Source of the DNA: Hydrangea macrophylla
Taxonomy: Eukaryota > Streptophyta > Magnoliopsida > Cornales > Hydrangeaceae
DNA: 64,000 nt
Assembly (NCBI GenBank): GCA_033977485.1
Contig: CM066988.1
Location: 77,844,669 to 77,908,668, forward strand
Direction: 5' to 3'
The notes below the pieces were generated by a model that made no database searches, was not told the origin of the DNA, and worked only from the letters and a program-made list of their open reading frames with translations. Shown in pieces: positions 4,629-57,310 of the stretch (positions are counted from its first letter, which is position 1; the number at the start of each line of letters is the position of its first letter). The position numbers were made by a program, and so were the translations under genes.

Positions 4629-6961
4629 TGTAACACCCGTACCCGGACGAGAAGATTAATGTGATAATAATATGTGTTAATTAAAGATAATTAATGCATA
4701 AATTGGTTTAAGGTGGGGTTATGAACCCACATGTGAAAAGGCGCTCAAATGCGGGCACAGATGAAAGTCCTGTGAAATGCGGGGCTACTATAGAAGTGGG
4801 GCCCAATGAAAGTCTAATTAAATAATTTGCATTTTTATGTCATTATATGTTTATATGATTACTTGTTTAAAAGTTTAAAGATATTATTATGTCTTATGAT
4901 AGGTAAGGGGACCAGTATGGGTACCCATGTGAGGGCGTAATTGAAAACAATTCATAATTGGTAGATTTAATAGCAACCTTATAATTTATGTTGGACCACG
5001 TTTGGGACCCACGCGAGACTTAGATTAAATACTTTTAGAAAAGGTGGGTAGCTAATGTAATTAGCATGGGGATTTCATAATTAAACTTAAAGAAAGTTGG
5101 GGGAGGTAAATGAGAATAAGAAGAAATGGTGACAACACATATGCATGGTAGCATATGTGTCTTTCCGTTGTTAAACACAGTTGGGAATTAGAATTTTGGA
5201 GAGAACGAGAGCTCCAAGTCGGCTACGGAAATTCTCGACGACGTTCCTTGTCGTTTCATCGGCGTCCGACATCAGATTCACGATCCGAGACCACTTTTGG
5301 ACTCGTGGAGGTAAGAGGATCACATGCACGTCTTTTATTTTCAGTTTTGACAACGTTTTTATGGCGGCCGTTCTTAATAGATGATGTTCTTGGCACTAAA
5401 CTTATGTAGGAATTACACGGTGGATTTTGGGTTGGAAATTTGCTAAAGGTTGGGATTTCTAAGCTTAAATCGCTAGTAAATCAAAGAGGTGAGTGTTCCA
5501 GTCCCAAAATTGGGTGTTTAGATATGTTGATGTGATAATTGTTAGCTTAGAATGCTTAATCCATGTTTATGTTTATATGTGTTGTTGAATTTGGGTAAAA
5601 AGCATGTCAAAGTTATGAAATTGCTATGCTTATATGGTTATATGCTAAGTTGCTTAAATACTTATGTCGATCAAAGGGAAGTCAAGTAGAGATCACCATT
5701 TATAGGTCTCATATGTAAGGTATAGGAAGTCCTCAATGAGTAGGACGTGGTGACGACCACAATGAAATGCCGGTAACGCCTTCGGGATCACAAGAGAGTG
5801 TGTGGTGTGCTATATGCGCCAAAAGAGTGAGAAATTCCGGGGTGAGAAGGACCCGGGGGTGGTGGTTGGTATGACTTGACGTTTCGAAGATCAATTTGTT
5901 GTTGTTCATAATGATTGTTGCATTTGCATATTAAGCATTCCAATAGCATGATTAGTTCCCTTACTAAGCGAAAGCTTAAACGAAAATATATTTTCTATTG
6001 TGGTTATTGAATAACCATCGCAGGTACCGTCCGAGAGGAGGAGAGAAAATGATCCACGCGACGGGTTTGGGTGTGGGAGTAGCAAATTGTGTTGATATGT
6101 GCATATGTATAGTTGTTTTGAGGTTAAGTTGTAATCCTCAACTCTAAGTGTTGTAAACATCTTGCATTTTGGAAATGTTGGGAGTAACTTGTATTTTGGG
6201 AATACTTGTAATCAGTTAAGTTCACATTTAGCTTGGTTGTGCCTAATGTTGTAAAGTGTACTTGCAAATTACAAGTTATGTATATTGGGGAAGAATTGGG
6301 AAGAAACTAGGTAACTTGTGATTGTGAATCTAAGCTTGTTTTCTCTTGTGGTGATGTTTTGCAAGTATTGGGGAAATGTGAATTTTGAATGTATCTTAAT
6401 GATTTTGGAGAGGAATTTGAGTGTTTGATTGTTATTTCACACTTGGATATGTTGAGCAAATGTTTTTAAGCACTTGGAGATGTTTTAGTAATGATCTTTG
6501 ATATTCCTACAAAGTTTGATTATGTTTGGTAATGTTTTGGGGCTTGAAAACTGAAGTTTTTAGCAGCAGGGAGCTGTTCTGCCAAGGCCGGATCGATCCA
6601 CCCCTTTTCGGGGACATTCTGCTAGAACTTTTGGAAAATGGATCGATCCCTTCTTTATCGCGGATCGATCCGCCCTTGTTTTGGCAGCTGCTGACTTTTA
6701 CGGAAACAAGCATAACTCTCTCTACAAAACTCGGATTTGCATGCCATTTTTTGCGTTGGAACCGGGACTCAAAGACCTATCTTTTGGTGTAAAATTTTGA
6801 TATACTTATGAAATTATAATTTTACCCTTGGGGCTGTTTTGTGTCAGTGAAGCTGATTTATGGGGTCTAAATCATGATTTTCGTAATAGATTAAGGGTGT
6901 TTTGGCTTGTGGGCTTTGTTACACGTGTCCCAGTCCATCCGAGATGTGTTGGGGTGTGACA
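4629..6961 (+). repeat. 3' LTR of the Tekay-like chromovirus
   Basis: It begins TGTAACACCC after the polypurine tract and ends GGGTGTGACA, giving 2333 bp with TG...CA ends. The partner 5' LTR is outside the window, so age cannot be judged. Short open frames inside (for example 5155-5409) look random and no coding function is supported. Three perfect GGATCGATCC words lie in its 3' third. Confidence 0.88.
6590..6671. repeat. GGATCGATCC palindrome cluster in the chromovirus LTR
   Basis: Perfect 10-bp palindromes at 6590, 6640 and 6662, separated by unrelated sequence, in an LTR otherwise poor in CpG. See findings. Confidence 0.9.
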
Positions 6962-8710
6962 TGGACATTAGCTCTCGACCTCAAAGACATGTTTAATGGA
7001 TGATGATTCTAACTTCAATACATTCATATGTATTCTTGAAGTCATATTCTCAAACAAAACTATGTTTGTGCAAGTAATATTGGGAGTTCTTGATATGAGT
7101 TTGATGATGATGTTCTAAGTGGTTTTAATCCCCTTTTTGTGCTAGAAATGTGCTTTCAAAACCCCTATTTCAAAACCCCTTTAAAACCCCCAACATTTGG
7201 AATCCAAGAAATAAGCTTTGTTTTACCAAAAATCTTCAAAAGAGTGAATGATCTGAGTTCAAAGGTTTTTCTAGAACTCAATACTCAAAGTATTAACATG
7301 ATACCACTTGGAAAGCTCTCTTAACTCATTAGAGAACACCCGTGATTTTTGGTTTGACATGGAAACACTACGAAGGGTCCATTTGGACCCAAACATTCTT
7401 TCCAGGTATTCTGTTTTTGCTGTCACAGCAACTTGGTTGACTTTCAACTTGTTTATAGAAACATTTTCCAAAAGGAGTAGTCCCAACTCATTTTTCCTTT
7501 GAACTTCAATGTCTTAGGGAACCTTCTGTATAATATGGGCCTCTAGATATTTTGTTTTCATTTTCTAAGATTTTTTAACATTTCAGTCCACAGTACGGAC
7601 TCTGTTTCTGAATAACCTCTATTGTTTATATGATTTCTCTCAATCTGTAATAGTAAGACAGGATTGGCTTTTTTATTTTCATTCTAGACACAATAAGGAT
7701 GATCTCCAAAAAAATCATGCATTGAAAACATTTCAAACCCTACCTTTCAATTTCCACAAGATCATGTTACTGTTCTGTCCACTATTCACAACAAGTATAT
7801 TTTTACTTCCATCCTTTGATTTGATGCTTATATGTACTTTAAATTAGTTCATATCCTAGAAAGTGGTCCATACCATATTTTTACATATCCCATGATGATT
7901 TCCCCCATGAATTCATGCATATTTTAGACTTCTAAGTCACTTTAGAAAGTCTATGTACACAAACACACTACAACCTTTGCACATTCTAGGATCATACATT
8001 GCATCCATGCAAGATTTGGAGTTTTTGTGACTCCTAATATAAGGAGATTATAAGGAATGAACTTGATTATACGATCATGTTTCCCCTCAATTGAATCTTC
8101 CTTTCTCATCTGTCCCGGGGATTGAGAGGTCTTCTTTTCTCAAAGACTAACATACATCGTCCTAGCTTGCTAAGCATATTTGACTTCTTTGATTATTTGT
8201 TTCAAGAACAATTCATGTCCCCTTAGATTAGGAAGACTTTACTACTTGATACGTGATTAGACGATTTTTCCTAGGTTTGTTTGTGTGATCTTTCACTTTG
8301 CATTGTATGATACTTGGCTTAGATCTTATGAATGATATCTTTTGATCTTCCATTTCAAGATTCTTATGTGATGTAATATACTATCATAGTATTAATTGTC
8401 AAACCAAACATAGTATAAGATGATTATTTGGATGCTAATTGAGGCTCGACGAGAGACGGGGAGAGTTGAGGGCGTTTTAGCCATGACAAAGGCTCCTTCC
8501 TCTCTCGTACCAAAACCCCGAGCCAAGTTCTTTGGTTATGAAAGGCCGATGCCATTTACCGTTTGGGTGAGTCAAATTGGGTTTCTTGGTTCCCTAAACA
8601 CCAAGTGGTGCCTCTGTATCTGTTTTCAACAGACCTTTTCCTTTTCTTTGATCCAAATCAATTTCAAAACAAAAACAAAAACAGTGGACGACCGATTCTG
8701 CGTGTCCACA
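6962..8710 (+). repeat. 3' half of an LTR of the TR-GAG family, plus orientation
   Basis: This is the reverse complement of about 25918-27660 (the solo LTR) and matches the TR-GAG LTRs at 11341 and 22122 less closely. It ends with the family terminus CGTGTCCACA at 8710. No primer-binding site follows, so it is a 3' LTR or solo LTR. The chromovirus cut it at 6961, which explains the missing first half. The 125-codon frame at 8420-8797 is LTR sequence, not a gene. Confidence 0.85.
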
Positions 8711-8904
8711 CGTGCATGGTCGGGTTGCATAAGATCGCACAAAGGACGTAGCGAATCATCAATTGGTACAACCACATTCTCACCATTTTCACTTTGATTG
8801 TCTGCCATTGAATCTGTAGGTGTAGCTACGGGATTAATAGAACTCGAAGAATTGGATGAATAGAATGGATTTTCATAAATTCCTTCAATGGAATTATCGT
8901 ACAT
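8711..8904 (-). pseudogene. Athila-like gag N-terminus, element A (truncated)
   Basis: A minus-strand ATG at 8904, about 110 bases downstream (in sense) of a primer-binding site, opens a frame of about 65 codons. It contains a Ser/Asn-rich stretch, then an MADNQ start-like motif and an SLRPLCDLMQP segment. This resembles the start of Athila-lineage gag proteins (resemblance by eye only). The frame runs into the inserted LTR at 8710 and is therefore truncated. Position directly after the PBS supports gag. No zinc knuckle or pol from this element is visible in the window. Confidence 0.6.
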
Positions 8905-9010
8905 GAAAGGGAAAAGATCCTAAAAGGTTTTAATCTAAAGAACTAAAAGAAAAGGAAAATAGAAAGAGATGAAGATAGATTGAGGTAATCTAAGTGTTAG
9001 CTTGTTGCCT

Positions 9011-9618: not shown

Positions 9619-9712
9619 GTTCGATCGATCGACACGCCTTCGATCGAAATGTCTTCAATTGCTTGACTGTACCTCTGTTCCGATCGATCGAACAAACTTA
9701 GATCGATCGAAC
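9619..9712. repeat. GATCGATC palindrome cluster 1 in LTR A
   Basis: Four copies of the word family TTCGATCGATCGAA (starting near 9619, 9639, 9679, 9699), plus a variant CAATTGCTTGAC at 9656. Confidence 0.9.
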
Positions 9713-10204: not shown

Positions 10205-10320
10205 TGTTCGATCGATCGAACATCACTCGATTGATTGAACTTCTGGATTACTCGGGCGCTTGAACCGTCTTCAATCAATCGAAACCTCAATCGCTTGAAC
10301 CTCTTCGATCGCTCGAACTT
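10205..10320. repeat. GATCGATC palindrome cluster 2 in LTR A
   Basis: It begins with a perfect 18-bp palindrome TGTTCGATCGATCGAACA at 10205, followed by five diverged copies (for example CGATTGATTGAAC, CAATCGCTTGAAC, CGATCGCTCGAAC). Confidence 0.9.
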
Positions 10321-11340: not shown

Positions 11341-14300
11341 TGTGGACATGCGGAATCGGACCACTTCTCTCTGGTTGAGATTGTTTTGAAAAGGAAAAGA
11401 AAAGGTCTGTTGAAAACAGATACAGAGTCGCCACTTGGTCTTTAAGGAACCAAGAAACCTAATTTTGACTCACCCAAATGGATAAAAGGCACCGGCCCTT
11501 CATAACCAAAGGACTTGGTTCGGGGTTTTGGTACGAGAGAGGAAGGAGCCTTTGTCGCGACTAAAACACCCTCAACTCGCCCCGTCTTTCGACGGGCCTC
11601 AATTAGCATCCAAATAATCATCTTATACTATGCATGGTTCGACAATTAATACTATGATAGTATATTACATCACATAAGAAAATTTGAAATGGAAGATCTA
11701 AAGATAAGATATCATTCATAAGATCTAAGCCAAATATCATACAATGTAAAGTGAAAGATCACACAAATAAACCTAGGAAAAATCGTCTAATCATATATCA
11801 AATAATCAAGACTTCCTAATCTAAAAAGGGGGACATGAATTGTTCTTGAAACAAATAATCAAAGAAATCAAGATATGCTTAACAAGCTAGTATGATGCAT
11901 GTTATTCTTTGAGAAAAGAAGATCTCTCAATCCCCGAGATGGATGAGAAAGGATGATTAGATCAAAGGGGAAGCATGAACATGTGATCGAGTTCATTCCT
12001 TATAATCTTCTTAGATTAAGGGTTACAAAAACCCCAAATCTTACATGAATGCAATGTATGTTTCTAAAATGTGCAAAGGTTGTAGTGTGTTTTGGGTACA
12101 TGGATTCCTAGAGTGACTTAGAAGTCTAAAATGTGTATGAATGAATGAATGAAATTAACATGGGATATGTACAAATGTAGTATGAACTACTTCCTAAGAT
12201 ATGAACTAATTTGGAATGCATATAAGCATCAAATCAAAGAATGAAAGTTAAGGTATACTTGCTGTGAATAGTGGACAGAACAGTAGCATCATCTTTGGAA
12301 ATTTGAAAAGAGGGGTTAGGAATGTTTTCAATGCATGATTTTTTATGGAGATGTTCTTTATTGTGTCTAGAACACAACCCAAAAGGCAAATCTTGAATAG
12401 CTATCACATATTGAGATAAATCATATAAACAACACAGGTCACTCAGAAACAGAGTCCGCACTGTCGACTGAAATGTTAGAAAATCTTAGAAAATGAAAAA
12501 GAATGATCTAAGGGCCCATTTTATACAGAGAGTTCCCTAAGACATTGAATTTTAAGGGAAAAATAAGTTAGGACCACCCCTTGTGGAAAAGTTTTCTGTA
12601 AAAGAGGTTGGAAGTGGACCTAGCTGCTGTGACAGCAAAATCAGAATGTTTGGAAGGAATATTGGGATCCAAATGGACCATTTCCAAGTACTTCCAAGTC
12701 AAACCAAAAATCATGGGTGTTCTCCAATGAGTTAGGAAGACTTTCCAAGTGGCCTTGCATCCATATGTTGAGTATTGAGTTCTAGAGAAATCTTTGAACT
12801 CAACTCACTCACTGTTTTGACTCATTGTTTTGAAGATTTTGGAGAAAACAAAGTTTTGTTTCTTGAAACCAAATGAGAGGGATTGAGAGGGGTTTTGAAA
12901 TAGATGTTTTGAAGACATATTTTTAACACTCAATAAGGATCATAGCCACTTAGAATACCTACATCAAACTCATCATTAAGAACCTCCAAGATTGTTGGAG
13001 AGATTTATTTTATTTTTGAACATAACTTCAATACATTCCAAGAATACCTTGGAAGTATTGAGGTTATGATCATCATCTATCAAACATGTTTTTGAGGTCA
13101 AGAGCTACTATCCATAAGGATTCACTCACCCCAAACTTCATGTCATCACTTAGATGATGATGAACTAGTAAGTAAATCAAGAAAAGAAAAAGAAATGAGA
13201 TAAGGAGAGATGAACATATATATAATCAAAGCAAGTAAATAGCAATCAATAGATGATAATCAATGTGATTTTGGACTTGTAGCTTGGTGTTTCACTCATA
13301 GATTTTGACATTTGGACATGGAAGTAGCTTCCTATCTCATGAATGCTCAAGAAATGAGGGTTGGAGTGGACTTTGAATGTGAAGTATATAGAAGGATGAT
13401 GGAAGAAAACAAGAATAAAACTCACTTTCTTATGGAAAATCAATGGGAGAAGCTCCCTTTCTCTCTTCTAAACCTATCTCTATCTCTCTTCTTCTCTACA
13501 ACTTTTCAAGCTTTGCACTTGGCCCCCCTAAAATGAAGAGCAATGGGGGGGTTTATATAGGCCAATTTGGGGGTGGTTTTGGGGTTTTAGAAGTACTCCC
13601 ATTGGTCCCAAACAACTGTGAACACAAAACTATGTCGTTTTGACTTTCAATTAATCAAATTGGACCCCCAAAAAAATTACAAAAATGGACTCTGCGAGGG
13701 TTGAGTGCTGCGGAGGCACTGGGCCAGTGCCGCGGCGGCAGTGGGCCAGTGCCGCGGCAGCACTGCTCCTCAGACGCCCAGAAATTTACGTTTAAGCCCC
13801 CAGAGGTTCCGGTATTCGCGAAAAGGCCCTATTTCGTCCGAAATTCACAAAAAATGCATATGAACTCCAAACTGAGGTTGTGATATACCGTTGGAAAGGT
13901 ATTGGAGTCTACTTTACATAAAAAATAGTTCGGGGATAAGTCACTTTGAAAAGTTTTGCGGTATTTGCGATAAAAGCCAATTTGATCGCCTTTTTTGCCT
14001 TTGGAAATTTATAATAAATTCGTTTTAAATCCAAAAATTATGTGCGATATACTGTTGGAAAGCTATTGACCTCTAGTATCCATGAAAAATGTTTGAAGAT
14101 TGTTTTGGTGCCCCGGTTCCAAAGTCAAATTTTGGTCAAACTGGTCAAACCTGGGATTCCCGGGAAGTTCTAGAAACCTCCGGGAGTTCCCGGGAGCTGA
14201 TGTTTTCGCTCGATTTTCTTTTGGAACTTGTTTTAACACTTTTCTCATGATTTAAAATGATTTCGGTGAATTCGGACGATTTCGGTCAAACTTGGTCAAA

Positions 14301-14610
14301 CCTTGGTCAAACCGGTCAACGGGGACTTTCCGGGAACTTCCGGGACTTCAGGGGGTCTCTGGGAGCCGACGATTTCATCTGATTTTTCTTAAAAACTCAT
14401 TTTGTTACTTTTCTTACGACATAGCATGTTTCCAGAACTTCGGGACCAAATCTGGGAGTTTTTTGGGCTTTCAGGGGCATTTTGGTCATTCTGAGCATTC
14501 TGAGGGATAGAGCTGACTTCCAGGAGTCCTTTTGAGTCTTTTACGATCATTGTGAACCACCAAGCTATGGGTCTCCTAAATCTGATAGCCGACAAAATGG
14601 GGTGTCTACA
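11341..14610 (-). repeat. 3' LTR of the TR-GAG element
   Basis: 3270 bp; plus strand TGTGGACATGCGG to GGGGTGTCTACA. The open frames inside (12234-12461, 13246-13443, 13312-13536, 14389-14787) recur in the other LTR only because the LTRs are nearly identical, so repetition is not evidence of coding. Confidence 0.95.
13705..13770. repeat. GC-rich palindromic words in the TR-GAG LTR
   Basis: CAGTGCCGCGGC/GCCGCGGCAGCACTG-type words repeated about three times within 65 bp of otherwise AT-rich DNA. The same block is at about 24487-24550, and a diverged version is at 28260-28325 in the solo LTR. Confidence 0.8.
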
Positions 14611-14624
14611 GTTTGCCCCTCTTT
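14611..14624 (-). other. polypurine tract of the TR-GAG element
   Basis: Minus strand AAAGAGGGGCAAAC abuts the 3' LTR start TGTAGACACC. Confidence 0.9.
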
Positions 14625-16139: not shown

Positions 16140-16920
16140 AATCAATAGCAACTTATGGACTTATGTTGCTAGGATGAAAGAAGATCATCAACTGCCACTC
16201 GTGGACTTATGATGCTATGAGAAAGGAAGATCATCAGCAGCCACTCATGGACTTATGTTTGCATGAAGAAAGATGAAAGATCAACAGCCACTCATGGACT
16301 TATGTTGCTAGGAGAAAAGAAGATCATCAACAGCCATTCGTGGACTTATGTTGCATGAATGAAGGAGGATGACCAACAGCCACTCATGGACTTATGTTGC
16401 TAGGAGAAAGGAAGATCATCAACAGCCATTCGTGGACTTATGTTGCATGAAGAAAGATGAAAGATCAACAGCCACTCATGGACTTATGTTGCTAGGAGAA
16501 AGGAAGATCATCAACAGCCATTCGTGGACTTATGTTGTATGAAGAAAGATGAAAGATCAACAGCCACTCATGAACTTATGTTGCTAGGAGAAAGGAAGAT
16601 CATCAACAGCCATTCGTGGACTTATGTTGCATAAATGAAGGAGGATGACCAACAGCCACTCATGGACTTATGTTGCTAGGAGAAAGGAAGATCATCAACA
16701 GCCACTCATGGACTTATGTTGCATGAAGAAAGATGAAAGATCAACAGCCACTCATGGACTTATGTTGCATGAACGAAGAAAGATGATGGATCAACAGCCA
16801 CTCATGGACTTATGTTGCACAGATGAAAGAAGATCATCAACAGCCACTCATGGACTTATGTTGCATGAACGAGGAAAGATGATGAATCAACAGCCACTCA
16901 TGGACTTATGTTGCTAGGAG
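16140..16920. repeat. satellite-like tandem array, about 13 units of about 55-60 bp
   Basis: Each unit carries the word CAACAGCCACTCATGGACTT followed by ATGTTGC. Two linker types (TAGGAGAAAGGAAGATCAT and TGAAGAAAGATGAAAGATC) partly alternate, so a higher-order dimer of about 115 bp is visible. The repetitive frame at 16645-16917 is a by-product. Such arrays in the 3' untranslated region are a known hypervariable feature of the Tat/Ogre lineage and can seed satellites. Confidence 0.92.
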
Positions 16921-25100: not shown

Positions 25101-25392
25101 ACGGGGACTTTCTGGGAACTTCCGGGACTTCAGGGGGTCTCTGGGAGCCGACGATTTCATCTAATTTTTCTTAAAAACTCATTTTGTTACTTTTATTACG
25201 ACATAGCATGTTTCCAGAACTTCGGGACCAAATCTGGGAGTTTTTTGGGCTTTCAGGGGCATTTTGGTCATTCTGAGCATTCTGAGGGATAGAGCTGACT
25301 TCCAGGAGTCCTTTTGAGTCTTTTACGATCATTGTGAACCACCAAGCTATGGGTCTCCTAAATCTGATAGCCGACAAAATGGGGTGTCTACA
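22122..25392 (-). repeat. 5' LTR of the TR-GAG element
   Basis: 3271 bp, matching 11341-14610 with about 20 substitutions or small indels seen by eye. In sense it begins TGTAGACACCCC (right end) and finishes at the PBS. Confidence 0.95.
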
Positions 25393-25917
25393 GACGATTT
25401 AAAACAATGGTTATTACTTGCACTCTAAATGGTGTTAGCATTCAAAGTGGTTTTCAAAAGTCATTGAAGAAAATAGCCTCAAGGCTTTAAGTTCTAAAAA
25501 TTGTTGTGACAAACTGAGCTTATAGGGACAATTTGATGACAGATTTCTAAAATGGAAAGTCTTGGAATACCTAAAAGAATCATCTCAGGAATTAACATGT
25601 TTGATCGATCGAAGCGCTCTCGATCGATCGGGCTGCATCATCCTTCAATCGATCGAAATGTCTTCGATCACTTGACTATGGCTCTGGTTCGATCGATTGA
25701 AATATCTTCGATCGATCGAGCCCAAGGTTTCTAAAGATTGTATGGCAGAGGTTGGGAATCAATGATTCATCACATATTCCCAACGTCTAAACTACAGAAA
25801 CATAATAAAATAGGTGCAGAAATAGTAAACTAAAGCAATCATAACAACTATATCAATAAGTAATCAAATAAGATAAAGGAAAGGAAAAAACCTGGAATGA
25901 ATCTGAATATAACAGTC
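25393..25917 (-). repeat. 3' LTR of element B, piece 2
   Basis: It resumes with the duplicated GACGA and continues the LTR, matching 51201-51720. It contains a GATCGATC palindrome cluster. Confidence 0.92.
25598..25722. repeat. GATCGATC palindrome cluster in B 3' LTR
   Basis: Five or more words of the type TTCGATCGATCGAA with variants (TTCGATCACTTGAC, TCAATCGATCGAAA). The same words in the same order occur at 51408-51528, and a related order is in LTR A at 9619-9712. Confidence 0.9.
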
Positions 25918-29160: not shown

Positions 29161-29807
29161 CCTTGAAATCAATTTGAATCTTGAGTTTACAATGGAAGAG
29201 AGGAAGAAGAAGATTGATCTAACCTAAACTACTCCTAAACTAACCCTAAAACTACCCTAAAACTGCTATTTTTTGCGTTCTGGAGCGTCCTCCCTTTGTA
29301 TGGTATCATAGCAGCTTATTTATAGGGTTCTGGCAGACTGTACACAACTTTCGAGAGAAAATAAAGCTCAATCGATCGAACTTAGTTCGATCGATTTAAC
29401 TCTCCTCAAGCCCTTCAACTTCTTTGATTTTGACAACTCTGCGCACTGATGGGAGAATGGCCATAACTTTTCACTCGGACTTCGGATTGATCTTCTATTT
29501 GTGGTCACACGACCGTAACTCAAAGATCTACATTTCATATTTCTGGGGAAATCTTCTAAATCTGAACTCTTCATTGTCAAAAATGGCATTTTCTCAGCTG
29601 CTTCTATTGTTCTCTCCACCAGATCACTTTCTATGCAACGATTGCTTTCTATGACCTGTAAAATAGTGTAAAAACACATGTTTGAGTCTCAACATCATAG
29701 AAAACACTTCATCATTGATATGCATCTAAATCTAGGGACTTGGGGATAAAAGTATGTATAAAAGACCATATAATACGCTAAGAATATGCATTTTTCACCT
29801 CTAATCA
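29161..29807 (-). repeat. 3' LTR of element B, piece 3
   Basis: Matches 51720-52396 and ends CTAATCA beside the PPT. A small GATCGATC pair sits at 29369-29399. The frames at 29368-29679 and 29424-29654 recur in the other LTR and are not genes. Confidence 0.92.
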
Positions 29808-34800: not shown

Positions 34801-35100
34801 TCACTATGCCACACTGACCATTACTCTTTTCCATACTGACCAACATTCACACTCACCATGCATGTACAACTGACTCCACATGTATGTCATGAAACTTAAA
34901 AATATGAGGTAAATCACTGAATTATAGAAACAACGTGTGCACAGGGATTGATAATTCACAATACATTGTTTTAATCGTCCAAACATAACCAAATAGGATT
35001 CTGTTTAAGTAAATTTTCCAAACAGGGCTTTAAAATTCCTAAAACATTACCCAAACAGTTCCTTAACACAAAACAAGCAAAAACCAGAAACTGCCAAAAG

Positions 35101-35362
35101 TCGCGCGCGCGGGCCGTTCGCGCAAAGGTCGCTCGCGCGGTCCGCTTGAGCGATATGCCCAAATTTTCGTTTTCTTTTATAAAACTTTTCCAACTGCCAG
35201 AATACAGGAAGATCGCGCTCGCGGTCCGCTCGCGCGATCTGCCAAATTTTCATTTTTCTTTTATAAAACTTTTCTGTCTGCCTGGGAATACAAACCTCGC
35301 GCGAGGGTCGCACGCGCACGGTCCGCTCGCGCGAGGTCCTCTCGCGCGATCGCGCGCGCGAG
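35101..35362. repeat. CGCGCGAG/CTCGCGCG palindrome cluster
   Basis: Three dense patches (35101-35155, 35210-35245, 35295-35362) of GCGCGC, CTCGCGCGAT and GGTCCGCTCGCGCGA words separated by AT-rich spacers that contain AAATTTTCRTTTTTCTTTTA in two copies. CpG density is extreme relative to the surroundings. Confidence 0.9.
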
Positions 35363-35467
35363 TTTCAGCAGAGACTTTATCTTCCTCGCTGGTTTTCCCC
35401 TGTTTTCAATTTTAAGGGGTCTTTTGACCCATTTCCAATTCTGCAACTATATATGTCATACAATATA

Positions 35468-35719
35468 CTCCCTCCGTCCCATTTTGAGAGTCCATCTTTG
35501 GGAACTCAACTTATTAAGGGGACAAAAAGAATCTACATCCACTTTCCACAATTGCCTTTAATCATTACAACAACTTTTTTAGTTTTGTCTTGGTGTAGAT
35601 TTCAAGGAGGGATAATTTTGGAAAGTAAGTAAAAATTGTACATCAATTTTAGGAAAGTGGACACTATTTTGGGACATCCCAAAATGGAATAATGGACTCT
35701 CAAAATGGGACGGAGGGAG
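35468..35719. mobile_element. Stowaway MITE, 252 bp
   Basis: CTCCCTCCGTCCC ends in inverted orientation, TA duplication on both sides; Tc1/mariner-derived. It is inserted in the solo LTR. Confidence 0.95.
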
Positions 35720-37023
35720 TATGAATCTCTTTGGTTTTTCGCAAGGATTAAGAATCCACAACTAATTTAACACGATTTCAAACGTAGCTCAAGAATTTTA
35801 TGAAAATCTAAAAGAAGATAAAAATTTCAATCTTAATATACTTTCTCAATTGAGTAAATTAAGCCTTAATCTTTTAAACATATCATCTATGATGTACACT
35901 TTCATAATCAATTCTAAAAGCAAGTTTTGGTTAAGGTTTATGATTATGAAGTTCAAGCTTCCATGACGAAATTAGCAATGGTGGTTCATCAATACATACA
36001 CTTCATCAGTAACTAAGCATAGAATTATATTTAGAGTGAGTTTAAAATACTCACAGAGATTAGAGATTGAAGAATTGTTGAGAAGGAAAACCATATAGGA
36101 AAATTCAAACCCAAGCTTTGGCTATGGGGATTAAGCTTTCTCTCTCCAGAAATTTAAACTCTCAAGCTCTCTCTTTTCTCTCTGTATTTCTTCCTCACTC
36201 TCTCAATTTCAGTTTGTAAAAATGCAGAATGAGAGTTGTAAGAGGTGAGGTGTGGGTAATATAAAGCTCAATGCTTGGAGGCCAAGTTGTGAGATGTGAA
36301 TTTCACTCAACAAACTAAATTTGGTTATCATTTACATAGCATTTGAAGTACATAGCCCATAAACACTGAAATTATACATACGTATATATGTTCCAATAAA
36401 ATCTGAAGAGGCAAGTTTAGGTGTGTAGGGGTCAAGCTTGAGTTGTTTAGTAATTCCAGCTTTAGGCCCCAAAACACACACAAGGCATACAAATCCAAAA
36501 AAAGCACAAGCCAATTGCCTAGGAATCACTTAGGTTGTTTGGATAAAAACAACTTATGGCACTAGGTTCACACACAATTCAAAAGCATTACCCAAACAAG
36601 CTTAGTAATGATTAGGGTAGATTCCCGAACTGTGGGAAATTAACACGGCGCTGACAGTTTTAGAACATAACTGGTATTTTTCGGGCGCAGTGATCACCAC
36701 AAAAATACAGAAAATTCTTTTTAACGTAAGAAATCATTTTCCGATTTTTATAAAAATACTGATTGAGTCAAAAGAAAATATTTCTACCATTTTAAAATGC
36801 AGATTTAAAATTCAGTACATATATCACTAAATTTTATAAAATTACAATTCGACCCCAAAAGAATTCTAATTATGAAATAAAACAAGAAATCAATTTCAAC
36901 ATAAGAGTTGCAAATTTAAAATAATCCTACGAACATAGATTAAACATGGAAATTCAAATTAAATTTAAATATGTCAAAGGCAAATACATATAATTAAATG
37001 GAAATGCAGGTTGTTACACAATA

Positions 37024-41877: not shown

Positions 41878-43389
41878 TGATGGAAAAACAGTTTAAAATT
41901 TATTTAAACGCACAGCGGAAAAATAAAGTTCAAAACTTTTATTGGTTGCCTGGATCTACTACTCATTAACTCTATAGATGCCTACAGGAGAGGGGACAGG
42001 TGCATTACCTTATGGTCTTGAACCCAATTCTGATTTAGTCCTTCTCTTTCTATGTGCAGCAGCAACATCTAAGAGATCTTCACCCTTATGTCTCCTTGAA
42101 TGCTCCCAGAGTGGCTAGGGTTGGTGGGAACCCTAATAGTGAGAATAGGGAAGGTTTGGGAACTCTAAACAAGTTCTACAGCAACTGGTATGTTAAAAAC
42201 GACGAACCCCCTTTTCTGGACGTAGCTGCCCTATTTATAGATTCCCATAACCGACCTTACTTTCAATCGATCGAAGTGACTTTGATCGATCGAACTTTCG
42301 ATCGATCGAACCACGTTCAATCGATCTAACCTGTCTAGACTTCAATCGATCGATAACAACTTCGATCGATCGAACCAGTCTTGACAACATTCTCATTTGC
42401 CTTTCCAAGCATTCTGGCGGAGCTAAGAGTGGGACCTCCTAGGTTCTTAATTACTGGCTCCGATTAATTATTATTCCATCTAGTCAGTACTCTTTACTAA
42501 GGAATCAATAATTAATCAATTATCATTAATGTCACTATAAAATGATAATTGCACTCCAGTGCATAAGAACATAATCACACATACATAAGTGATTGCTAGA
42601 CTTGTATAATATGATACGGATGTCCCTCTACCAGGCAGTATTCGTATCTATCATTGGGATGTATGTCTTAAGATACTGTCGACCCAATAGATAGTACATC
42701 TTATATTCCTCAAGTATCATTCACTACTCTTGGATTACTAAACATGTCAACAATAACAATTTGTTGACAAGGCTGGCCAGCTCTCAGTAATCACACCTAG
42801 TGACATTCTCGAGGGAATACTTACTCTTCGTTTTATTGAAGAGGGTAGAATTCCATCTTGACAATATATGTTCCCAACGTTGCATACTTGATTACCCAAG
42901 ATACCCAGGTGTTGATCTTGCAAGACCTCACTGATTGGTAAGTCAAAGCAACCAAGCATACAACTTGCGTCCATAACTGTCTCAGGATTAAGGACATATA
43001 TCCCTATACAAGTTTTGAGTTCCTGTTGACGGTGACAGCGTTTAGGTGTTAATAGGTATAACTCAGGTCCGTCAATGCACCGAGTGCACTAGCATATTAA
43101 CCAAAAGTCAAAGACTCTTATGAATGAGATTCATCATTCTACCCCGTAGACGTTAATCATGCTACAGTGTATACCTGATAAGTTATCCAGACTTATCATC
43201 TACTGTGACTTATTTGAAACAGCAAGGATTTGTGATTCATATCTCACATGTGTAATCACATACACAAATGGACCACATACAATGTTGTTTAAGGATTCCA
43301 ATCTAATATTCATCTCATGAACTAACATGCATAAATGCATTATGATATTCCATTGTCCAACTAATTGGTTTGAGGGCATATTCCCAACA
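41878..43389 (-). repeat. 3' LTR of the Copia element
   Basis: 1512 bp, TGATGG to CCCAACA on plus. It carries a GATCGATC cluster at 42267-42384. Confidence 0.95.
42267..42384. repeat. GATCGATC palindrome cluster in Copia LTR
   Basis: Six words (CAATCGATCGAAG, TTTGATCGATCGAAC, TTTCGATCGATCGAAC, CAATCGATCTAAC, CAATCGATCGATAA, TTCGATCGATCGAAC) within 118 bp. The other LTR has the same cluster at 48821-48938. Confidence 0.92.
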
Positions 43390-43400
43390 AACTCCCACTT
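43390..43400 (-). other. polypurine tract of the Copia element
   Basis: Minus strand AAGTGGGAGTT abuts the LTR start TGTTGGGAA. Confidence 0.9.
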
Positions 43401-47275: not shown

Positions 47276-47965
47276 TTGAAAAAAAAAATTGTTTCTTCAC
47301 ATTGACCATAAACATCAAGTGTTTGCTAATGTGTTGGAAAAAAAGTTTTTTGAATTTCATTTTAGAAAACCTGTTTTACGTGCATGCAAGTAGTAACAAT
47401 ATATATAATGCCAATCACAACTAAGCACATAAAACCAAAACTAAAATGGAATAAAAACATTCAACAATGCCTCTATCTCCCATGGCTCTATCTCCATAGA
47501 ACCTCCCTCTTGGTTTGATTGCCTCTGACTCCATCTTCATGGACAATGGCTTGCTCCTCCATCTTCATGGATTTTCTAATTCTATTACATTGGTCCTATG
47601 CTTCTCTCGAAGCTTACAATTTATCTAGAAATAACAATAATAAATACAAGGCTAGGGAAACCGGTGCGACTTTCCTTTTCTTAGGATTGAAGTCGCATCG
47701 CCCTTTACATATGCCTTAAAACCAAACCAACAATTAAAACATAATAAATACCAATCTCAAACAATTAAATACAAAATTTAAAAGTCTTGGCGCCATGGGA
47801 GATAGCGGACTAAGCTTGCTGCAAAAGGGTTATTCACACGCACAACCACGCATATATATAACAAACATATGTACCATTGGAACCCCTAATTGATTCACAT
47901 AGTATATAAACTCTTTACATACTGAATTAGAACTTAAAAACATCATCACAGTTCTCTGTCTCTCT
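47276..47965. other. Copia leader, no feature recognised
   Basis: Between gag and the palindrome-rich leader. The 66-codon plus frame 47519-47719 is on the opposite strand to the element and has no known match. Confidence 0.6.
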
Positions 47966-48263
47966 TCGATCGATCGATAAAGGTTCGATCGATTGAACCT
48001 TTGATCGATTGAACTATTCAATCGATTGAACTTTCAGTTTCACAGAATGTCTTGAAAAACTTACAGAATAAATAAAAATTTAAAGTAAATATTTTAAAAC
48101 CTTTAAATCTGTAAACTGAACACCTGGACAAAAGAGCAGTCTCGATCGATCGAACACCATTCGATCGATCGAACAGAACCAAAGTTCGATCGATCGAAAA
48201 AAGTTCGATCGCTTGAGAACAGGTGATGTTCGATCGATCGAGACGACTTTGATCGATCGAACC
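47966..48263. repeat. GATCGATC palindrome clusters in the Copia leader
   Basis: Two patches, 47966-48033 (four words) and 48138-48263 (six words), of TTCGATCGATCGAAC and variants such as TTCGATCGATTGAAC and TTCGATCGCTTGAG. They lie 150-460 bp from the PBS, in the RNA leader upstream of gag. Confidence 0.92.
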
Positions 48264-48429: not shown

Positions 48430-48431
48430 AT

Positions 48432-49944
48432 TGATGGAAAAGCAGGTTTAAAATTTATTTAAACGCGTAGTGGAAAAATAAAGTTCAAAACTTTTATTGG
48501 TTGCCTGGATCTACTACTCATTAACTATATAGATGCGTACAGGAGAGGGGACAGGTGCATTACCTTATGGTCTTGAACCCAATTCTGATTTAGTCCTTCT
48601 CTTTCTATGTGCAGCAGCAACATCTAAGAGATCTTCACCCTTACGTCTCCTTGAATACTCCCAGAGTGGCTAGGGTTGGTAGGAACCCTAATAGTGAGAA
48701 TAGGGAAGGTTTGGGAACTCTAAACAAGTTCTGCAGCAACTGGTATGTTAAAAACGACGAACCCCCTTTTCTGGACGTAGCTGCCCTATTTATAGATTCC
48801 CAGAACCGACCTTACTTTCAATCGATCGAAGTGACTTCGATCGATCGAACTTTCGATCGATCGAACCACGTTCAATCGATCTAACCTGTCTAGACTTCAA
48901 TCGATCGATAACAACTTCGATCGATCGAACCAGTCTTGACAACATTCTCATTTGCCTTTCCAAGCATTCTGGCGGAGCTAAGAGCGGGACCTCCTAGGTT
49001 CTTAATTACTGGCTCCGATTAATTATTATTCCATCTAGTCAGTACTCTTGACTAAGGAATCAATAATTAATCAATTATCATTAATGCCACTATAAAATGA
49101 TAATTGCACTCCAGTGCATAAGAACATAATCACACATACATAAGTGATTGCTAGACTTGTATAATATGATACGGATGTCCCTCTACCAGGCAGTATTCGT
49201 ATCTATCATTGGGATGTATGTCTTAAGATACTGTCGACCCAATAGATAGTACATCTTATATTTCTCAAGTATCATTCACTACTCTTGGATTACTAAACAT
49301 GTCAACAATAACACTTTGTTGACAAGGCTGGCCAGCTCTCAGTAATCACACCTAGTGACATTCTCGAGGGAATACTTACTCTTCGTTTTATTGAAGAGGG
49401 TAGAATTCCATCTTGACAATATATGTTCCCAACGTTGCATACTTGATTACCCAAGATACCCAGGTGTTGATCTTGCAAGACCTCACTGATTGGTAAGTCA
49501 AAGCAACTAAGCATACAACTTGCGTCCATAACTGTCTCAGGATTGAGGACATATATCCCTATACAAGTTTTGAGTTCCTATTGATGGTGACAGCATTTAG
49601 GTGTCAATAGGTATAACTCAGGTCCGTCAATGCACCGAGTGCACTAGCATATTAACCAAAAGTCAAAGACTCTTATGAATGAGATTCATCATTCTACCCC
49701 GTAGACGTTAATCATGCTACAGTGTATACCTGATAAGTTATCCAGACTTATCATCTACTGTGACTTATTTGAAACAACAAGGATTTGTGATTCATATCTC
49801 ACATGTGTAATCACATACACAAATGGACCACATACAATGTTGTTTAAGGATTCCAGTCTAATATTCATCTCATGAACTAACATGCATAAATGCATTATGA
49901 TATTCCATTGTCCAACTAATTGGTTTGAGGGCATATTCCCAACA
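48432..49944 (-). repeat. 5' LTR of the Copia element
   Basis: 1513 bp; same cluster of palindromic words as the 3' LTR. Frames 48609-48884 and 49302-49529 are duplicated in the other LTR (42054-42329, 42747-42974) and are not genes. Confidence 0.95.
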
Positions 49945-50475: not shown

Positions 50476-50712
50476 AAAACTTGACACGAGTAAAAAGTTG
50501 TGCGCTCTTGTGCAACACCCAAGTATAGGTGATCGTGCAAGTAATACTGGATAAGTCCAGGTCGATCCCACAGGGAAGGAAAAGAGAGAATGTCTACTAA
50601 GTTATAACCTAAAGAAAAGGAAAAAGATGAATATACGGGTGGAGGTTCTAACGAATCCTATTTAAATATATTAAACTAAATAACAAGCTAAAGCATAAAG
50701 AAACATAATTAA

Positions 50713-51003
50713 GGGTTAAATGCATTTTTCACCCTCAAACTACACCCTATTTGGCACTTTGGTCCCTAAACAATTTATTTTTACATTTTGGTCCCTCAAC
50801 TAAAATTTTGTGGCAGTTTGCCCCTCCGTCACTTTTAGCGTCACTTTTCGCGTCACTAAAAGTGACTTTTTTTGTCACTAAAAGTGATGGAGAGGGCAAC
50901 AGCCACAAAATATTAGTTGAGGGACCAAAATTCAAAAATAAATTGTTTAGGGACCAAAGTGCCAAACAGAGTATAGTTTGAGGGTGCAAAATGCATTTAA
51001 CCC
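50713..51003. mobile_element. Mutator-type MITE, 291 bp, 9-bp TSD
   Basis: Long inverted ends starting GGGTTAAATGCATTTT; almost the whole element folds on itself (TTGGTCCCTAAACAATTTAT against its complement). A perfect 9-bp duplication CATAATTAA flanks it (50704-50712, 51004-51012), diagnostic of Mutator. The uninterrupted site is visible at about 11135-11150. Both frames inside (50747-50989, 50751-50981) are mirror translations of the hairpin. Confidence 0.93.
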
Positions 51004-51407
51004 CATAATTAATTAAACAGGTAAATTAAAGGTGTTGGAAACACATGAATCCACATTGATCCTAACCATCTACCATGCACATTCATTAACGATCTATGGA
51101 GTTCATTCCTTTTCAGTATTCCGTATTTTTCTAAAGATAAAGAATTAATAGCCCTTTCATGACCGGGACTATATCACCACAGTTGATTTAAAATACTTGG
51201 AAGACGGTTTAAAACAATGGTTATTACCTGCACTCTAAATGATGTTAACATTCAAAGTAGTTTTTAAAAGTCATTGAAGAAAATAGCCTTAAGGCTTTAA
51301 GTTCTAAAAACTGTTGTGACAAACTGAACTTATAGGGACAATTGATGACAGATCTCGAGAACAGAAAGTCTTGGAATACCTAAAAGAATCATCTCAGGAA
51401 TTAACAT

Positions 51408-51528
51408 GTTCGATCGATCGAAGCGCTCTCGATCGATCGGACTGCATCATCCTTCAATCAATCGAAATGTCTTTGATCGCTTGACTATGGCTCTGGTTCG
51501 ATCGATCGAAATATCTTCGATCGATCGA
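51408..51528. repeat. GATCGATC palindrome cluster in B 5' LTR
   Basis: Same words and order as 25598-25722, including the variant TTTGATCGCTTGAC. A smaller second patch is at 51940-51987. Confidence 0.9.
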
Positions 51529-52401
51529 GTCCAAGGTTTCTAAAGATTGCATGGCAGAGGCTAGGAATCAATGATTCATCACGTATTCCCAACATCTAAA
51601 CTACAGAAACATAATAAAATAGGTGCAGAAACAGTAAACTAAGCAATCATAACAACTATATTAATAAACATTCAAATAAGATAAAGGAAAGGAAAAAACC
51701 TGGAATAAATCTGAATATAACCTTGAAATAAACTTGAAATCAACTTGAATCTTGAGTTTACAATGGAAAAGAGGGAGAAGAAGATTGATCTAACCTAAAC
51801 TACTCCTAAACTAAACCTAAAACTACCGTAAAACTGCTGCTTTTCGCATTATGGAACGTCCTCCATTCGTTTGGTATCATAGCAGCTTATTTATAGGGTT
51901 CCCGTAGATTGTATGCAACTTTTTGGGAAAAAATAAAGCTCAATCGATCAAACTTATTTTGATCGATCGAAGTCTCAATCGATTGAACTCTCCTCAAACC
52001 CTTGAACTTCTCTGATTTTGACAGCTCTGCGCACTGATGGGAGAATGGCCATAACTTTTCACTCGGACCTCGGATTGACCTCCTGTTTACAGCCACGCGA
52101 CCATAACTCAAAGATCTACATTTCATTTTTTTGGGGAAATCTTCCAAATATGAAGTTTTCATTGTCAAAAATGGCATTTTCTCAGCTGCTTCTATTGTTC
52201 TCTCCACCAGAATCATTTTCTATGCAACGATTGCTTTCCATGACTTGTAAAATAGTGTAAAAACACATGTTTGAGTCTCAACATCATAGAAAACACTTAA
52301 TCATTGATATGCATCTAAATCTAGGGACTTAGGGATAAAAGTATGCATAAAAGACCATATAATACGCTAAGAATATGTATTTTTCACCTCTAATCACAAA
52401 C

Positions 52402-52830: not shown

Positions 52831-54344
52831 TGACTCTGTCAAAATCCAGTATTTTTATTAACCCTTTTAAAATGTAATATGTTGGAAGTAGGGTGTCGAG
52901 TCTACAGAGATTGATACAAGGATAACGTTTGGGAAGTTTAGAAACTAATTATAATGCTTAAAAGAAAGAAATGAAAAAAGATGATAAAAAACAATAAAAA
53001 GACTTTGCGTCTTTTGGGATTTTTTTTAAGGATAAAAGAGAAAACTATCTAAAAAGTAATAGGTTAGGATTATTCCCCCCATCTTAGGTCACAACAAGAT
53101 AAAATGGACTAATATTTCAAGCACTCTCTAAGCTAACATCTCATTATGGCATATTATCAAACACAAGGAGTACATCTATATGTTAGATGAAAGCAGCTTT
53201 GAGATTTCCATAGAAACGGATTTGAAGCTAATGTTTGACTATCAAGGATGCATGACATACAAGATGAAGCCTCCATGGCTTCTAATCTAAATGACTTGTC
53301 CACCCTACGCTAACTAATCTACTTGGTGGACAAATCACCTATGAAGCCTTCAAAAGGTAGTATTTAAAACCCATAAGTTTGAACAATCAAAGATGCTTGA
53401 CATCCAAGATGAAGACTCCATGTTTTAAATCACACACACAACAATTATCAAACACATAGACTGCAGAACACAAGGTTACATAATATTCCATATAAAATAC
53501 ATAAGGTAGAATTCAAAGTCTAAGTTTTGACAATCAAAGATGCAGTGCAAATAAGATGAAGCCCCTAGTTTTGAATCCTACATAAATGAACCCTAGAAAT
53601 GCTACAACATTAAATCCAAGAGTTCATGATCCACAACCTAAGTAAATTTAACCAATAATAGAAAACAGAGCAATATCATCAAAGGAAAAGAGATATAAAA
53701 TATTCAAAGCCATTAAAACTTCAATGAAATCTTCAAGTTTACAATAATGAAGAGAAAATGGAAGGGAACCCAAGGGGGCTTCCCAAATTAAGAGAAAAAT
53801 GATTGATCCCCTAAAAAAAACTATCACTAACTATATATACAACCCACACAAATGAAAAACTTATAAATAAAAGAGGGAAAATCAACAGCAGAGGCGGATC
53901 GATCCACGGCTTAAAGCCGAATCGATCCGTCATTCATCTGGGCAGTTGGAATACGTGTTCAGGTTCGTGGATCTTTGAGGTTGGATCGATCCGATATTGA
54001 TGCTTTGGGAAGTAGCTTCCTCCAAATGCAAGGATCATTCCGCGTTGAAGGGCCAGATCAATCCACCTTTGCTAAAGTTGTTTTCTTCCCCTTTTCATGA
54101 GATAAAAACCAAACGGGATTTGTTTTCACTTTGAACAAGTTCCCAAATCCTACAAGAAAGAGATTATTATTAGCAACAAGTGAACAATAAACAAGATTAA
54201 CAAAAGCATAAGTTATCCATCAAATCTCCCAATTTAGGTGATACTGTGTCCAATAAGAGTAAAATCATGAAGTCAAGAGTGCAATATTGAACACGAATCA
54301 ATCATGTATTTATAATGTCTATTGTATTATTTTTATTAGGATCA
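52831..54344. repeat. probable LTR (unnamed family D)
   Basis: A GGGTGTCGAGTCTACAGAGA segment near 52890 is laid out like the corresponding CCAGGTCGATCCCACAGGGA segment of LTRs A and B, and a GGATCGATCC cluster sits at 53896-54065. No PBS or PPT is visible and edges are approximate. TATATA-like sequence (CTATATATACAACC) lies near 53831. Confidence 0.45.
53896..54065. repeat. GGATCGATCC cluster in LTR-like unit D
   Basis: Perfect words at 53896 and 53983, variants GAATCGATCCG near 53920 and AGATCAATCC near 54055. This is the same word as in the Tekay-like LTR at 6590-6671 but in otherwise dissimilar sequence. Confidence 0.88.
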
Positions 54345-54845
54345 ATGATTTGACAATTTCATCCGATTTTGCTTTAAAACTCATTTTAATACTCTTCCTA
54401 TGACGTAGTGTCTTACCAGAACTTTTGGTCCAAATATGGGACCATTGGGGCTTTCAGGGGCATTTTGGTTATTTTTACTCCCTCCGTCCCTTTGAGTCCT
54501 ATATTCCATTTTAGGATGTCCCAAAATTAGTGTCCACTTTCCTAAATTGGTATACAATTTTTGCTTACTTTCCAAAACTACCCTTTCTTGAAATCTATAC
54601 CAAGACTAAACTAAAAAAGTCATTGTAATGATTAGGGGCAATTGTGAAAAGTAGGTATAGATTCTTTTTGTCCCCTTAATAAGTTGAGTTCCCAAAGGTG
54701 GACTCAAAAAAAGGGACGGAGGGAGTACAATTTTCTGAGTATAGAACTAACTTTCGGGAGTCCTTTTCGAGTCTTTTTCAATCATTGTGAACTACCAAAC
54801 TATGGGTCTCCTAAATCTAATAGCCGATAAAATGGGGTGTCTACA
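54345..54845 (-). repeat. truncated LTR of the TR-GAG family with a MITE
   Basis: The right end GATAAAATGGGGTGTCTACA and preceding 250 bp match the 5' end (in sense) of the TR-GAG LTRs; the left edge is broken near 54350. A Stowaway MITE splits it. Confidence 0.85.
54478..54725. mobile_element. Stowaway MITE, 248 bp
   Basis: CTCCCTCCGTCCC inverted ends, TA duplication (54476-54477, 54726-54727). Same subfamily as 35468-35719 but in reverse orientation. Confidence 0.95.
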
Positions 54846-55810: not shown

Positions 55811-55899
55811 CATGGTGAAAACAATAGCAAAATGACTACCTCTAACACCTCCATTTGAGGCAGCACCAATAGTCATTGTACCTACCCCTAAGGTCAGGG

Positions 55900-56800: not shown

Positions 56801-57014
56801 CAGGGAAGATCATTTCAGATGAATCCGATGTGGCTGTGTCACGACCCATCCCGCTACGCACAGAAATAGGACACGTGGCACGCCACCAAGGCTCATCCAA
56901 TTCCATTAAAATAAGATAGCAGCAGAAAAATGTGAGTAAATCCTTTAAAATCAGAGTTATAAAAAGTTTTGCTCAATTAAAAATGCTTTCAAAGAATCGA
57001 TTTTGAAAAATAGA

Positions 57015-57310
57015 GGTTCAGTCGATTGGAGCGGGGCTCTGGTTGACTGGAGATCAAAAGTAGTAAGTTTAAAAAAGTCCAAAGGTCTCGTCCAGTCAAC
57101 TGTGTCAGGGACTTAGTCGACTGGGGCCTCAATTTCTCAGTCGACTAGTGCCTTGTCCAGTCGACTAGACATTATGCATGCAGAATGCCATGTTTTCGTG
57201 CAGAAACCAGTCGACTGATACCTCTCCTTCAGTGGACTAAAGTCTGCAAAAACTAAAGGAAAAATTTGAAACTCAAGGGGTCCAGTCGACTGGTCGGAGA
57301 TTCAGTTGTC
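57015..57310. repeat. CCAGTCGACTGG palindrome cluster in LTR E
   Basis: Perfect CCAGTCGACTGG at 57282; at least nine related words (CTTAGTCGACTGG, CTCAGTCGACTAG, TCCAGTCGACTAG, ACCAGTCGACTGA, TCCAGTCAACTG and others) over about 300 bp. Confidence 0.92.

Follow-up and report, generated by a model that had tools for sequence, protein, structure and literature searches.

The window analysed here, a 64,000-nucleotide stretch of the Hydrangea macrophylla genome (GCA_033977485.1, contig CM066988.1, positions 77,844,669 to 77,908,668 of the forward strand), contains seven groups of retrotransposon long terminal repeats (LTRs), which we delimited by self-comparison, Pfam scans, and reading of their termini and designate A, B/D/G, C, E, F, H, and I. 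Within them lie compact arrays of short, CpG-containing palindromic words that stand at set distances and may serve as docking sites for host DNA-binding proteins. CpG palindromes of at least 10 bp numbered 45 in the window, as against 10.1±3.1 (maximum 18) over 60 local dinucleotide shuffles; with array borders set by us around the words and LTR borders approximate, 38 of them fell in the arrays (1,876 bp), 4 in other LTR sequence, and 3 outside LTRs. On the same borders, the ratio of observed to expected CpG was 1.75 in arrays, 0.50 in the remaining LTR sequence, and 0.56 elsewhere. When a cluster was defined as at least three copies of one 8-bp palindrome containing all four bases, with gaps of no more than 150 bp, the window gave 15 clusters at nine places (six of these counted twice through two overlapping 8-mers) and 200 shuffles gave none. 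A preliminary description of this DNA had reported the clusters as recurrent across unrelated element lineages and set in sequence otherwise poor in CpG. This was borne out, the shuffles that it had named as a control show the clusters to be far from random, and its word was found at every position it gave. We add arrays at 47965-48030, 48141-48261, 48817-48929, 29367-29399, and 51939-51987. Non-palindromic tandem repeats are also present in the same region.

Two groups belong to chromoviruses, i.e., gypsy-type elements with chromodomains. LTR A (~4629-6961, plus strand) is the 3' LTR of an element whose pol is represented by pieces at 536-4402 and whose chromodomain lies at 4412-4576. Pfam matches were to RVT_1, RT_RNaseH, SH3_Tf2-1, and the chromodomain PF00385 (25.7 bits, cut-off 25.1), together with a weak rve match under its cut-off; the lineage is putatively Tekay. 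Its array comprises three copies of GGATCGATCC at 6590..6671, with steps between words of 50 and 22 bp, and no TATA was found in this LTR. LTR I (~59973-56838, minus strand) is preceded by a stretch resembling a chromovirus integrase and by a partial chromodomain, which scored 24.6 bits, just under the cut-off. Its array at 57018..57315 holds ~10 CAGTCGACTG words at steps of 21, 53, 21, 24, 20, 50, 22, 53, and 22 bp, with the TATA (58425) ~1.1 kb upstream. This array had been placed, as 57015-57310, in a copia LTR; the LTR in fact follows the chromovirus integrase/chromodomain end, and a copia fragment is inserted within it. In these two LTRs (~5300-6025 and 58260-57600) and in the chromovirus LTR of a further locus, L008 (4560-5255), inspection by eye showed that the array is preceded by a likely splice donor (GAGGTAAGA-like) and a likely acceptor (TTGCAGG or CGCAGG) and may therefore sit in a spliced leader exon.

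The LTRs of group C (11341-14611 and 22122-25393) are 99% alike and enclose a Retrotrans_gag match, with relatives at 25961-29160 and 6961-8710. The array at 13705..13770 (minus strand) has a TATA 145 bp downstream (13560), a partner copy at ~24487-24545, and a diverged copy at ~28285-28319. The GCCGCGGC word reported here is present but is the weakest member of the set: the array is a ~22-bp tandem repeat of about three units with a CCGCGG core, and in the two young LTRs each array contains a single exact CpG palindrome of 10 bp or more. The C element also has an internal 46-bp tandem array at 16155-16914. Group H shares the start of its LTR (54845) with C but is kept apart because its words differ; its array (53896..54064, minus strand) consists of five GGATCGATCC-type words at steps of 23, 64, 49, and 23 bp, with a TATA-like site 57 bp downstream (53839). 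Group E is a solo LTR on the minus strand (33772-37018, boundaries read from the sequence), with a target duplication CAATA, an insert resembling a miniature inverted-repeat transposable element (MITE), and an array of TCGCGCGA and GCGGTCCGC palindromes at 35101..35362. MITE-like inserts with CTCCCTCCGTCCC-type ends lie at 35466-35721 in E and at 54476-54727 in H, and a CAGGGAGTGTCC unit is repeated at 34440-34850, on the LTR-3'-end side of the palindrome array in E.

The word TTCGATCGATCGAA (the TTCG word) occurs in group B/D/G and in the unrelated element F, just as GGATCGATCC occurs in both A and H. The B and D/G LTRs are on the minus strand and adjoin a primer site whose last letters are CCGTTGCCGGGGA or CCGTTGCCGAGGA; they are putatively of Athila/Tat type. 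LTR B has a TATA-proximal array at 10207..10317, 69 bp from its TATA (10138), with steps of 19-25-19-16-18 bp if the slot at 10251, which was placed by spacing, is counted and of 19-44-16-18 bp if it is not, and a second, downstream array at 9620..9711 that, compared with G, has suffered a deletion. We read D as the 3' LTR and G as the 5' LTR of a single element (polypurine tract, PPT, ~29811; primer-binding site, PBS, ~50470) with later insertions between them, and their arrays, which the preliminary description had counted as independent cases (25598-25722 and 51408-51528), are therefore one case. The downstream arrays of D (25600..25720) and G (51409..51529; LTR ~50484-52394) both step 19-25-19-25-19. 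The TATA-proximal arrays are two words at 29367..29399 in D (TATA 29325, 42 bp downstream) and 51939..51987 in G (steps 19-16; TATA 51896, 43 bp downstream). LTR G also carries an inverted-repeat insert at 50706-51011. The junctions of the elements nested in D (near 11340/25393 and 25914/29160) fall outside the arrays, and we set aside the notion that arrays are integration targets. The sequence phrase CATAACT...CTCGGA is found next to arrays in two LTR types that are not related (6712, 29463, and 52051, plus strand), in opposite orientation relative to the elements.

Element F is an 8-kb minus-strand element (41.9-49.9 kb). Each of its LTRs bears a TATA-proximal array 22 bp from the TATA: 42262..42374 in the LTR at ~41878-43390 (steps 19-16-19-25-20; TATA 42240) and 48817..48929 in that at ~48432-49944 (TATA 48795). 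Two more arrays lie in the leader, the first in the interval between PBS and gag (48141..48261, steps 19-25-19-25-19, as in G) and the second at 47965..48030 (steps 19-16-17). Off-consensus words with CGCTTGA or CGCTCGA recur in F, G, and B (48204-48217, 51472-51485, and 10286-10317). The sole stop-to-stop open reading frame (ORF) of at least 150 aa in F encodes a copia-type gag (PF14223, 45783..46748); there is no pol ORF, and three shorter ORFs in or beside the internal region had no Pfam match. Relatives of this gag include proteins of Castanea, Persea, and Cucumis, the longer matches having 30-42% identity across most of the query.

The spacing of the TTCGATCGATCGAA words follows a narrow rule. 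Among 25 non-homologous steps in six window arrays, 12 were of 19 bp, 6 of 25 bp, and 4 of 16 bp, so that 22 of 25 took one of three values, a number reached by none of 200,000 uniform draws on 16-25. Omission of slot 10251 left 11, 5, and 4 of 24 steps at 19, 25, and 16 bp (20/24); among the 23 steps of at most 25 bp, 20 then had these values, as did 1 in 200,000 draws. The letters between the words are free: with D and the second F LTR left out as duplicates, mean identity was 0.256 (null 0.245) for five-base spacers (n=22) and 0.264 (0.243) for eleven-base spacers (n=7), while words, which had been chosen allowing up to three mismatches, had a pairwise identity of 0.844. The first leader array of F and the array of G, from unrelated elements, have identical steps and agree at 74/84 word positions and 13/37 spacer positions. 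The preliminary description was thus correct that words agree where spacer letters do not, but it missed that spacer lengths are set. For CAGTCGACTG, spacers of 10-11 bases had an identity of 0.36-0.40 and those of 41 bases 0.28, both against 0.25, and since these spacers are somewhat alike, the freedom of letters holds fully for the TTCG word only. The 10-11 base spacers between paired CAGTCGACTG words look rich in CCC/GGG. With a helical turn of 10.5 bp, the CAGTCGACTG steps come close to 2, 5, and 7 turns (R=0.665), although here, as in other step counts, related copies are not independent.

Beyond the window, TTCGATCGATCGAA occurs 101,717 times in the 2.22-Gb, 19-contig genome, whereas its reversed control, with the same bases and no CpG, occurs 8 times. 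Among the first 100 matches listed, some of which lie in blocks duplicated at the beginning of contig C1, a distance of 19 was commonest, then 79 and 63, then 44 and 16. On that contig (~0.1-1.3 Mb), positions of the word repeat in blocks, 98-392 kb matching 602-899 kb and, inverted, ~1.02-1.27 Mb, which suggests a large duplication or an assembly artefact. We also examined twenty 10-kb stretches picked by coordinate alone (200 kb, of which 8,850 bases are N). They gave 11 clusters at 10 places, as against a mean of 0.025 (maximum 1) over 40 shuffles; two of the 11, GTATATAC in L020 and, in L021, an array of TGCGCGCA that resembles a satellite, are of a doubtful kind. Per possible 8-mer, clusters of CpG palindromes (10/88) were ~20 times commoner in the sample than those of CpG non-palindromes (95/17,196). 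The 24 short TTCGATCGATCGAA steps in the sample included 11 of 19 bp, 3 of 25 bp, and none of 16 bp, and all 28 CCAGTCGACTGG steps, from two stretches, fell within 20-24, 50-53, or 70-75 bp, while two control palindromes gave no such short-step pairs in these 200 kb. GGATCGATCC had four scattered matches and no array in the sample, and its standing as an array word therefore comes from A and H. Paired-word searches of viral contigs and GTDB genomes gave no match, as expected for plant DNA.

The words have sharp borders and a retained core. In four CAGTCGACTG arrays of the sample (two stretches), with words chosen at up to 3 mismatches in 12, the 10-bp core had 11 changes in 350 positions and the two flanking bases 39 in 70. 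Of 34 TTCGATCGATCGAA slots, 31 had retained the central CpG, whereas the outer CpGs survived in 42 of 68 cases (19 and 23 of 34; Fisher p=0.002), a result unchanged without slot 10251; the sample gave 23/24 and 31/48 (12 and 19 of 24), respectively. Between the D and G LTRs, words differ at 6 of 84 positions, five of these being CpG transitions, and spacers at 0 of 37, while the F LTR pair has 24 ungapped differences with one in words. Between B and G, matches were 58/66 in words, 17/26 in spacers, and 85/138 in flanks. Words are thus maintained in transposing lineages and decay in fixed copies. The preliminary description had named words mutating as fast as spacers as the outcome that would speak against it; this was seen inside the dead D/G pair and not between families, which separates decay after insertion from constraint at the level of the lineage.

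Position relative to the promoter was likewise patterned in the window. In B/D/G, C, F, and H, an array lies 22 to 168 bp upstream of a TATA-like site on the element strand, and 4 of 10 non-redundant arrays have a TATA no more than 150 bp downstream (background 2.9%, p=1.2e-4), with the qualification that the TATA pattern was widened after the LTRs had been read and that the H site was found only by the widened pattern. Other arrays lie in transcribed sequence: the second array of B/D/G is some hundreds of bases downstream of the TATA, and the two leader arrays of F follow the PBS.

The preliminary description knew of no named system of this kind. A comparable one is on record, in statements that hold for the available portions of the papers cited here: palindromic RM boxes have been described from Sireviruses (PMC2829016), and palindrome regions from maize Sireviruses (PMC10760457). 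Bousios et al. (2010) reported RMs in 13 Sireviruses, with at least 8 and up to 32 copies, mostly in the upper half of the LTR, upstream of the TATA, and with CGG-CCG cores except in Tnd-1, and named the feature Sirevirus-specific by comparison with classic copia elements (PMC2829016). Like the arrays, RM boxes are short, repeated, family-specific, CpG-rich palindromes with extra copies outside the LTR; their place shortly upstream of a TATA has a counterpart in 4 of 10 non-redundant window arrays and, without significance, in 2 of 8 arrays of the 200-kb sample. The Tnd-1 RM ACAATCGATTGT has CAATCGATTG in common with the F word at 48017-48030, and the Vitis RM CGGTCGACCG has GTCGAC in common with CAGTCGACTG. 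Unlike RM boxes, TTCGATCGATCGAA, GGATCGATCC, and CAGTCGACTG lack CGG-CCG, which is present in E as GCGGTCCGC; the window elements include gypsy-type LTRs (A, I, and, by the Retrotrans_gag between its LTRs, C); extra copies lie in the 5' leader rather than before ENV; and spacing lengths are set, whereas the available text of PMC2829016 gives no spacing rule. Compared with the RM minimum of 8, I has ~10 copies, F 6 per LTR and 10 in the leader, A 3, and H 5 per LTR, several elements being incomplete in the window. The arrays work like RM boxes yet fail two of their defining features, the CGG-CCG core and confinement to Sireviruses. Element F does match the 16-bp Sirevirus junction of 5' LTR and PBS, CA-ATTGG-TATCAGAGC, with CAATTGGTATCAGAGC at F position 1513, a junction of which a semi-conserved version is also found in some classic elements (PMC2829016). 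However, the Sirevirus PPT AGGGGGAG, which occurs in several copies 10 bp from the 3' LTR, has no copy in F, and despite the junction we did not file F as a Sirevirus; F has instead three copies of AGTGGGAG, one adjoining the 3' LTR.

Other known systems are more distant. The maize Sirevirus small-RNA hotspot likewise consists of clustered palindromes, predicted to form secondary structure, within the regulatory part of the LTR (PMC10760457, PMC5311732), but lineages and host differ. The targets of VANC proteins of VANDAL transposons are dense, family-specific words in non-coding DNA, bound by protein (Hosaka et al., 2017; PMC5735166); they resemble the arrays in being short, specific to transposable element (TE) families, and subject to rapid turnover among related families, and differ in that the binder is encoded by the element, the elements are DNA transposons, and the VANC21 motif, YAGTATTAY, is non-palindromic, in one orientation, and spread with tandem repeats. 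When 23 of the 63 window ORFs of at least 90 aa were scanned with Pfam, the matches listed were retrotransposon domains and one weak DUF3150 under its cut-off. The short interrupted repeat cassettes (SIRC) of Arabidopsis (PMC10342631) comprise 2-8 short direct repeats with unrelated spacers and are common in mobile elements, a resemblance of description only; ~57% are without palindromes, and the available text gives neither a spacing rule nor a promoter position. Among titles and abstract openings of the matches listed, no report of palindrome arrays in gypsy LTRs appeared, most subscription journals lying outside the search, and a search with ACAATCGATTGT returned, among the matches listed, only PMC2829016. 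Matches to word strings in PMC10211496 and PMC9994763 lay in an artificial example sequence and a construct sequence, respectively, and were set aside, and PMC11963269, in its available part, mentions palindromes through a reference only.

With a probability of about one half, we interpret the arrays as spaced sites for one or more sequence-specific, probably dimeric, host DNA-binding proteins, so that they would act as cis-regulatory docking modules of LTR retrotransposons and might promote element expression. Each short palindrome would be one site, and the fixed centre-to-centre distances would let bound units cooperate. The modules would stand in U3, immediately before the TATA, in transcribed sequence beyond the promoter, or in both places, and words would be maintained in active lineages while CpG decay removes them from dead copies. 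We favour this reading because an array of protein sites would explain the sharp word borders, the retained core, the rule of lengths, and the placement on both sides of the promoter, and judged from sequence the dimeric protein site proposed in the preliminary description is a sensible suggestion. Also in its favour are the TATA proximity in the window, the CAGTCGACTG steps near whole helical turns, the sharing of words by unrelated elements while related ones (C and H) differ in theirs, and the precedent of Sirevirus RM boxes in front of the TATA.

Several observations weigh against such docking modules. The two halves of a word showed no excess of joint change: TTCGATCGATCGAA had 4 symmetric double changes as against 4.4 double changes expected, and pair 1 of CCAGTCGACTGG in the sample 9 as against 10.5. 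The TTCGATCGATCGAA steps are out of helical phase (R=0.308; 49 steps, including the word-selected loci L001 and L002). Since words were picked by similarity, their high identity arises partly by construction, and we discarded a pairwise alignment comparison of cores with spacers, in which an unrelated control reached 0.73/0.66. The arrays of the chromovirus LTRs A, I, and L008 have their near edge ~180-290 bp from the 3' end of the LTR, and those of I and L008 lie ~1.1 kb downstream of the TATA, which is not a classical enhancer position. Finally, TATA proximity in the 200-kb sample was 2/8 arrays (p=0.06), with 2/8 in the reverse-direction control; this is not significant, and the link to the promoter is therefore unconfirmed beyond the window.

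A role at the RNA level is less likely but still a serious alternative. Here, word arrays would fold into stacked hairpins in genomic RNA, for dimerisation (the kissing loops of the preliminary description), packaging, or pairing of 5' and 3' ends, or as templates for host small interfering RNAs, as has been proposed for maize Sireviruses. The F leader arrays, the second array of B/D/G, and the array of I do lie downstream of the TATA, the presence of one word in both leader and U3 would suit 5'-3' pairing, and small RNAs are in excess over the palindrome-clustered LTR regions of maize Sireviruses (PMC10760457 and PMC5311732, citing Bousios et al., 2016). All 12 arrays folded below the dinucleotide-shuffle mean (z from -1.8 in the second array of B to -6.8 in I); however, these scores do not discriminate, since any palindrome array must fold. 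Hairpins need no exact spacer length, spacers of 2 nt are too short as loops, words show no excess of compensatory double changes, and U3 arrays lie outside the 5' leader.

We consider it unlikely that the arrays are functionless products of tandem-repeat dynamics, in which slippage and gene conversion spread a word with a dimeric period (19+25=44 bp, 21+51=72 bp). A higher-order period of this sort is present in the step patterns, the array in C is simply a ~22-bp tandem repeat, non-palindromic tandem repeats lie nearby, and the spacers of CAGTCGACTG pairs are partly alike (0.36-0.40 vs. 0.25). But slippage would copy spacers too, and because the TTCG spacers match at chance while their words do not, we ruled out neutral duplication of whole units as the sole cause. 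The ~20-fold preference for CpG palindromes per 8-mer in the sample, and the identical word and step pattern in unrelated elements, also argue against a neutral origin.

Capture of ready-made modules, by which TTCGATCGATCGAA and GGATCGATCC arrays passed between elements through recombination or template switching and sharing reflects transfer rather than convergence on one host factor, is in our view improbable. Similarity between the F leader and G stops at the array borders, and both arrays have the GATCGCTTGA variant as word 4; on the other hand, their spacer identity is not above chance (p=0.18), so that any transfer would be old. Capture bears on origin, moreover, and is compatible with protein sites. 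A reading as coding repeats was rejected, as steps of 16, 19, and 25 shift the frame at every unit and the two ORFs over the F leader arrays had no Pfam match. Least plausible is the protected CpG island of the preliminary description, shielded from methylation and holding the LTR promoter open, for although CpG is enriched in arrays and Sirevirus RM clusters border predicted CpG islands (PMC2829016), the arrays are short, and five of the six D/G word differences, beside 37/37 identical spacer positions, are CpG transitions such as methylated CpGs undergo.

The arrays look like a broader version of a pattern known from one plant retrotransposon group. What is new is the occurrence of the design in gypsy-type LTRs, two groups of them with chromodomains, and in a gag-only copia-type element, the sharing of words across superfamilies, the spacing rule, and the additional arrays downstream of the promoter. 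A kind of motif that was described as peculiar to a single copia genus is thereby extended to gypsy-type elements, and the rule of set lengths and free letters is a constraint that any protein or RNA mechanism must explain. More tentatively than the protein-site reading itself, we suggest that unrelated LTR lineages may share a "spaced-palindrome" control code, reached by convergence or by exchange, in which each family would use one of a few words, set at fixed distances in U3 and downstream and read by host proteins, families would switch words while the architecture stays, and the ~100,000 exact copies of one word would form a dispersed load of binding sites for a host factor. The exact words and spacings named here can be put directly to reporter and binding assays. 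Should proteins bind these sites, the regulators of the host would meet a huge pool of element-borne sites, with consequences for the part that TEs play in rewiring or buffering gene regulation and for the ways in which element families may escape cross-regulation by changing their words.

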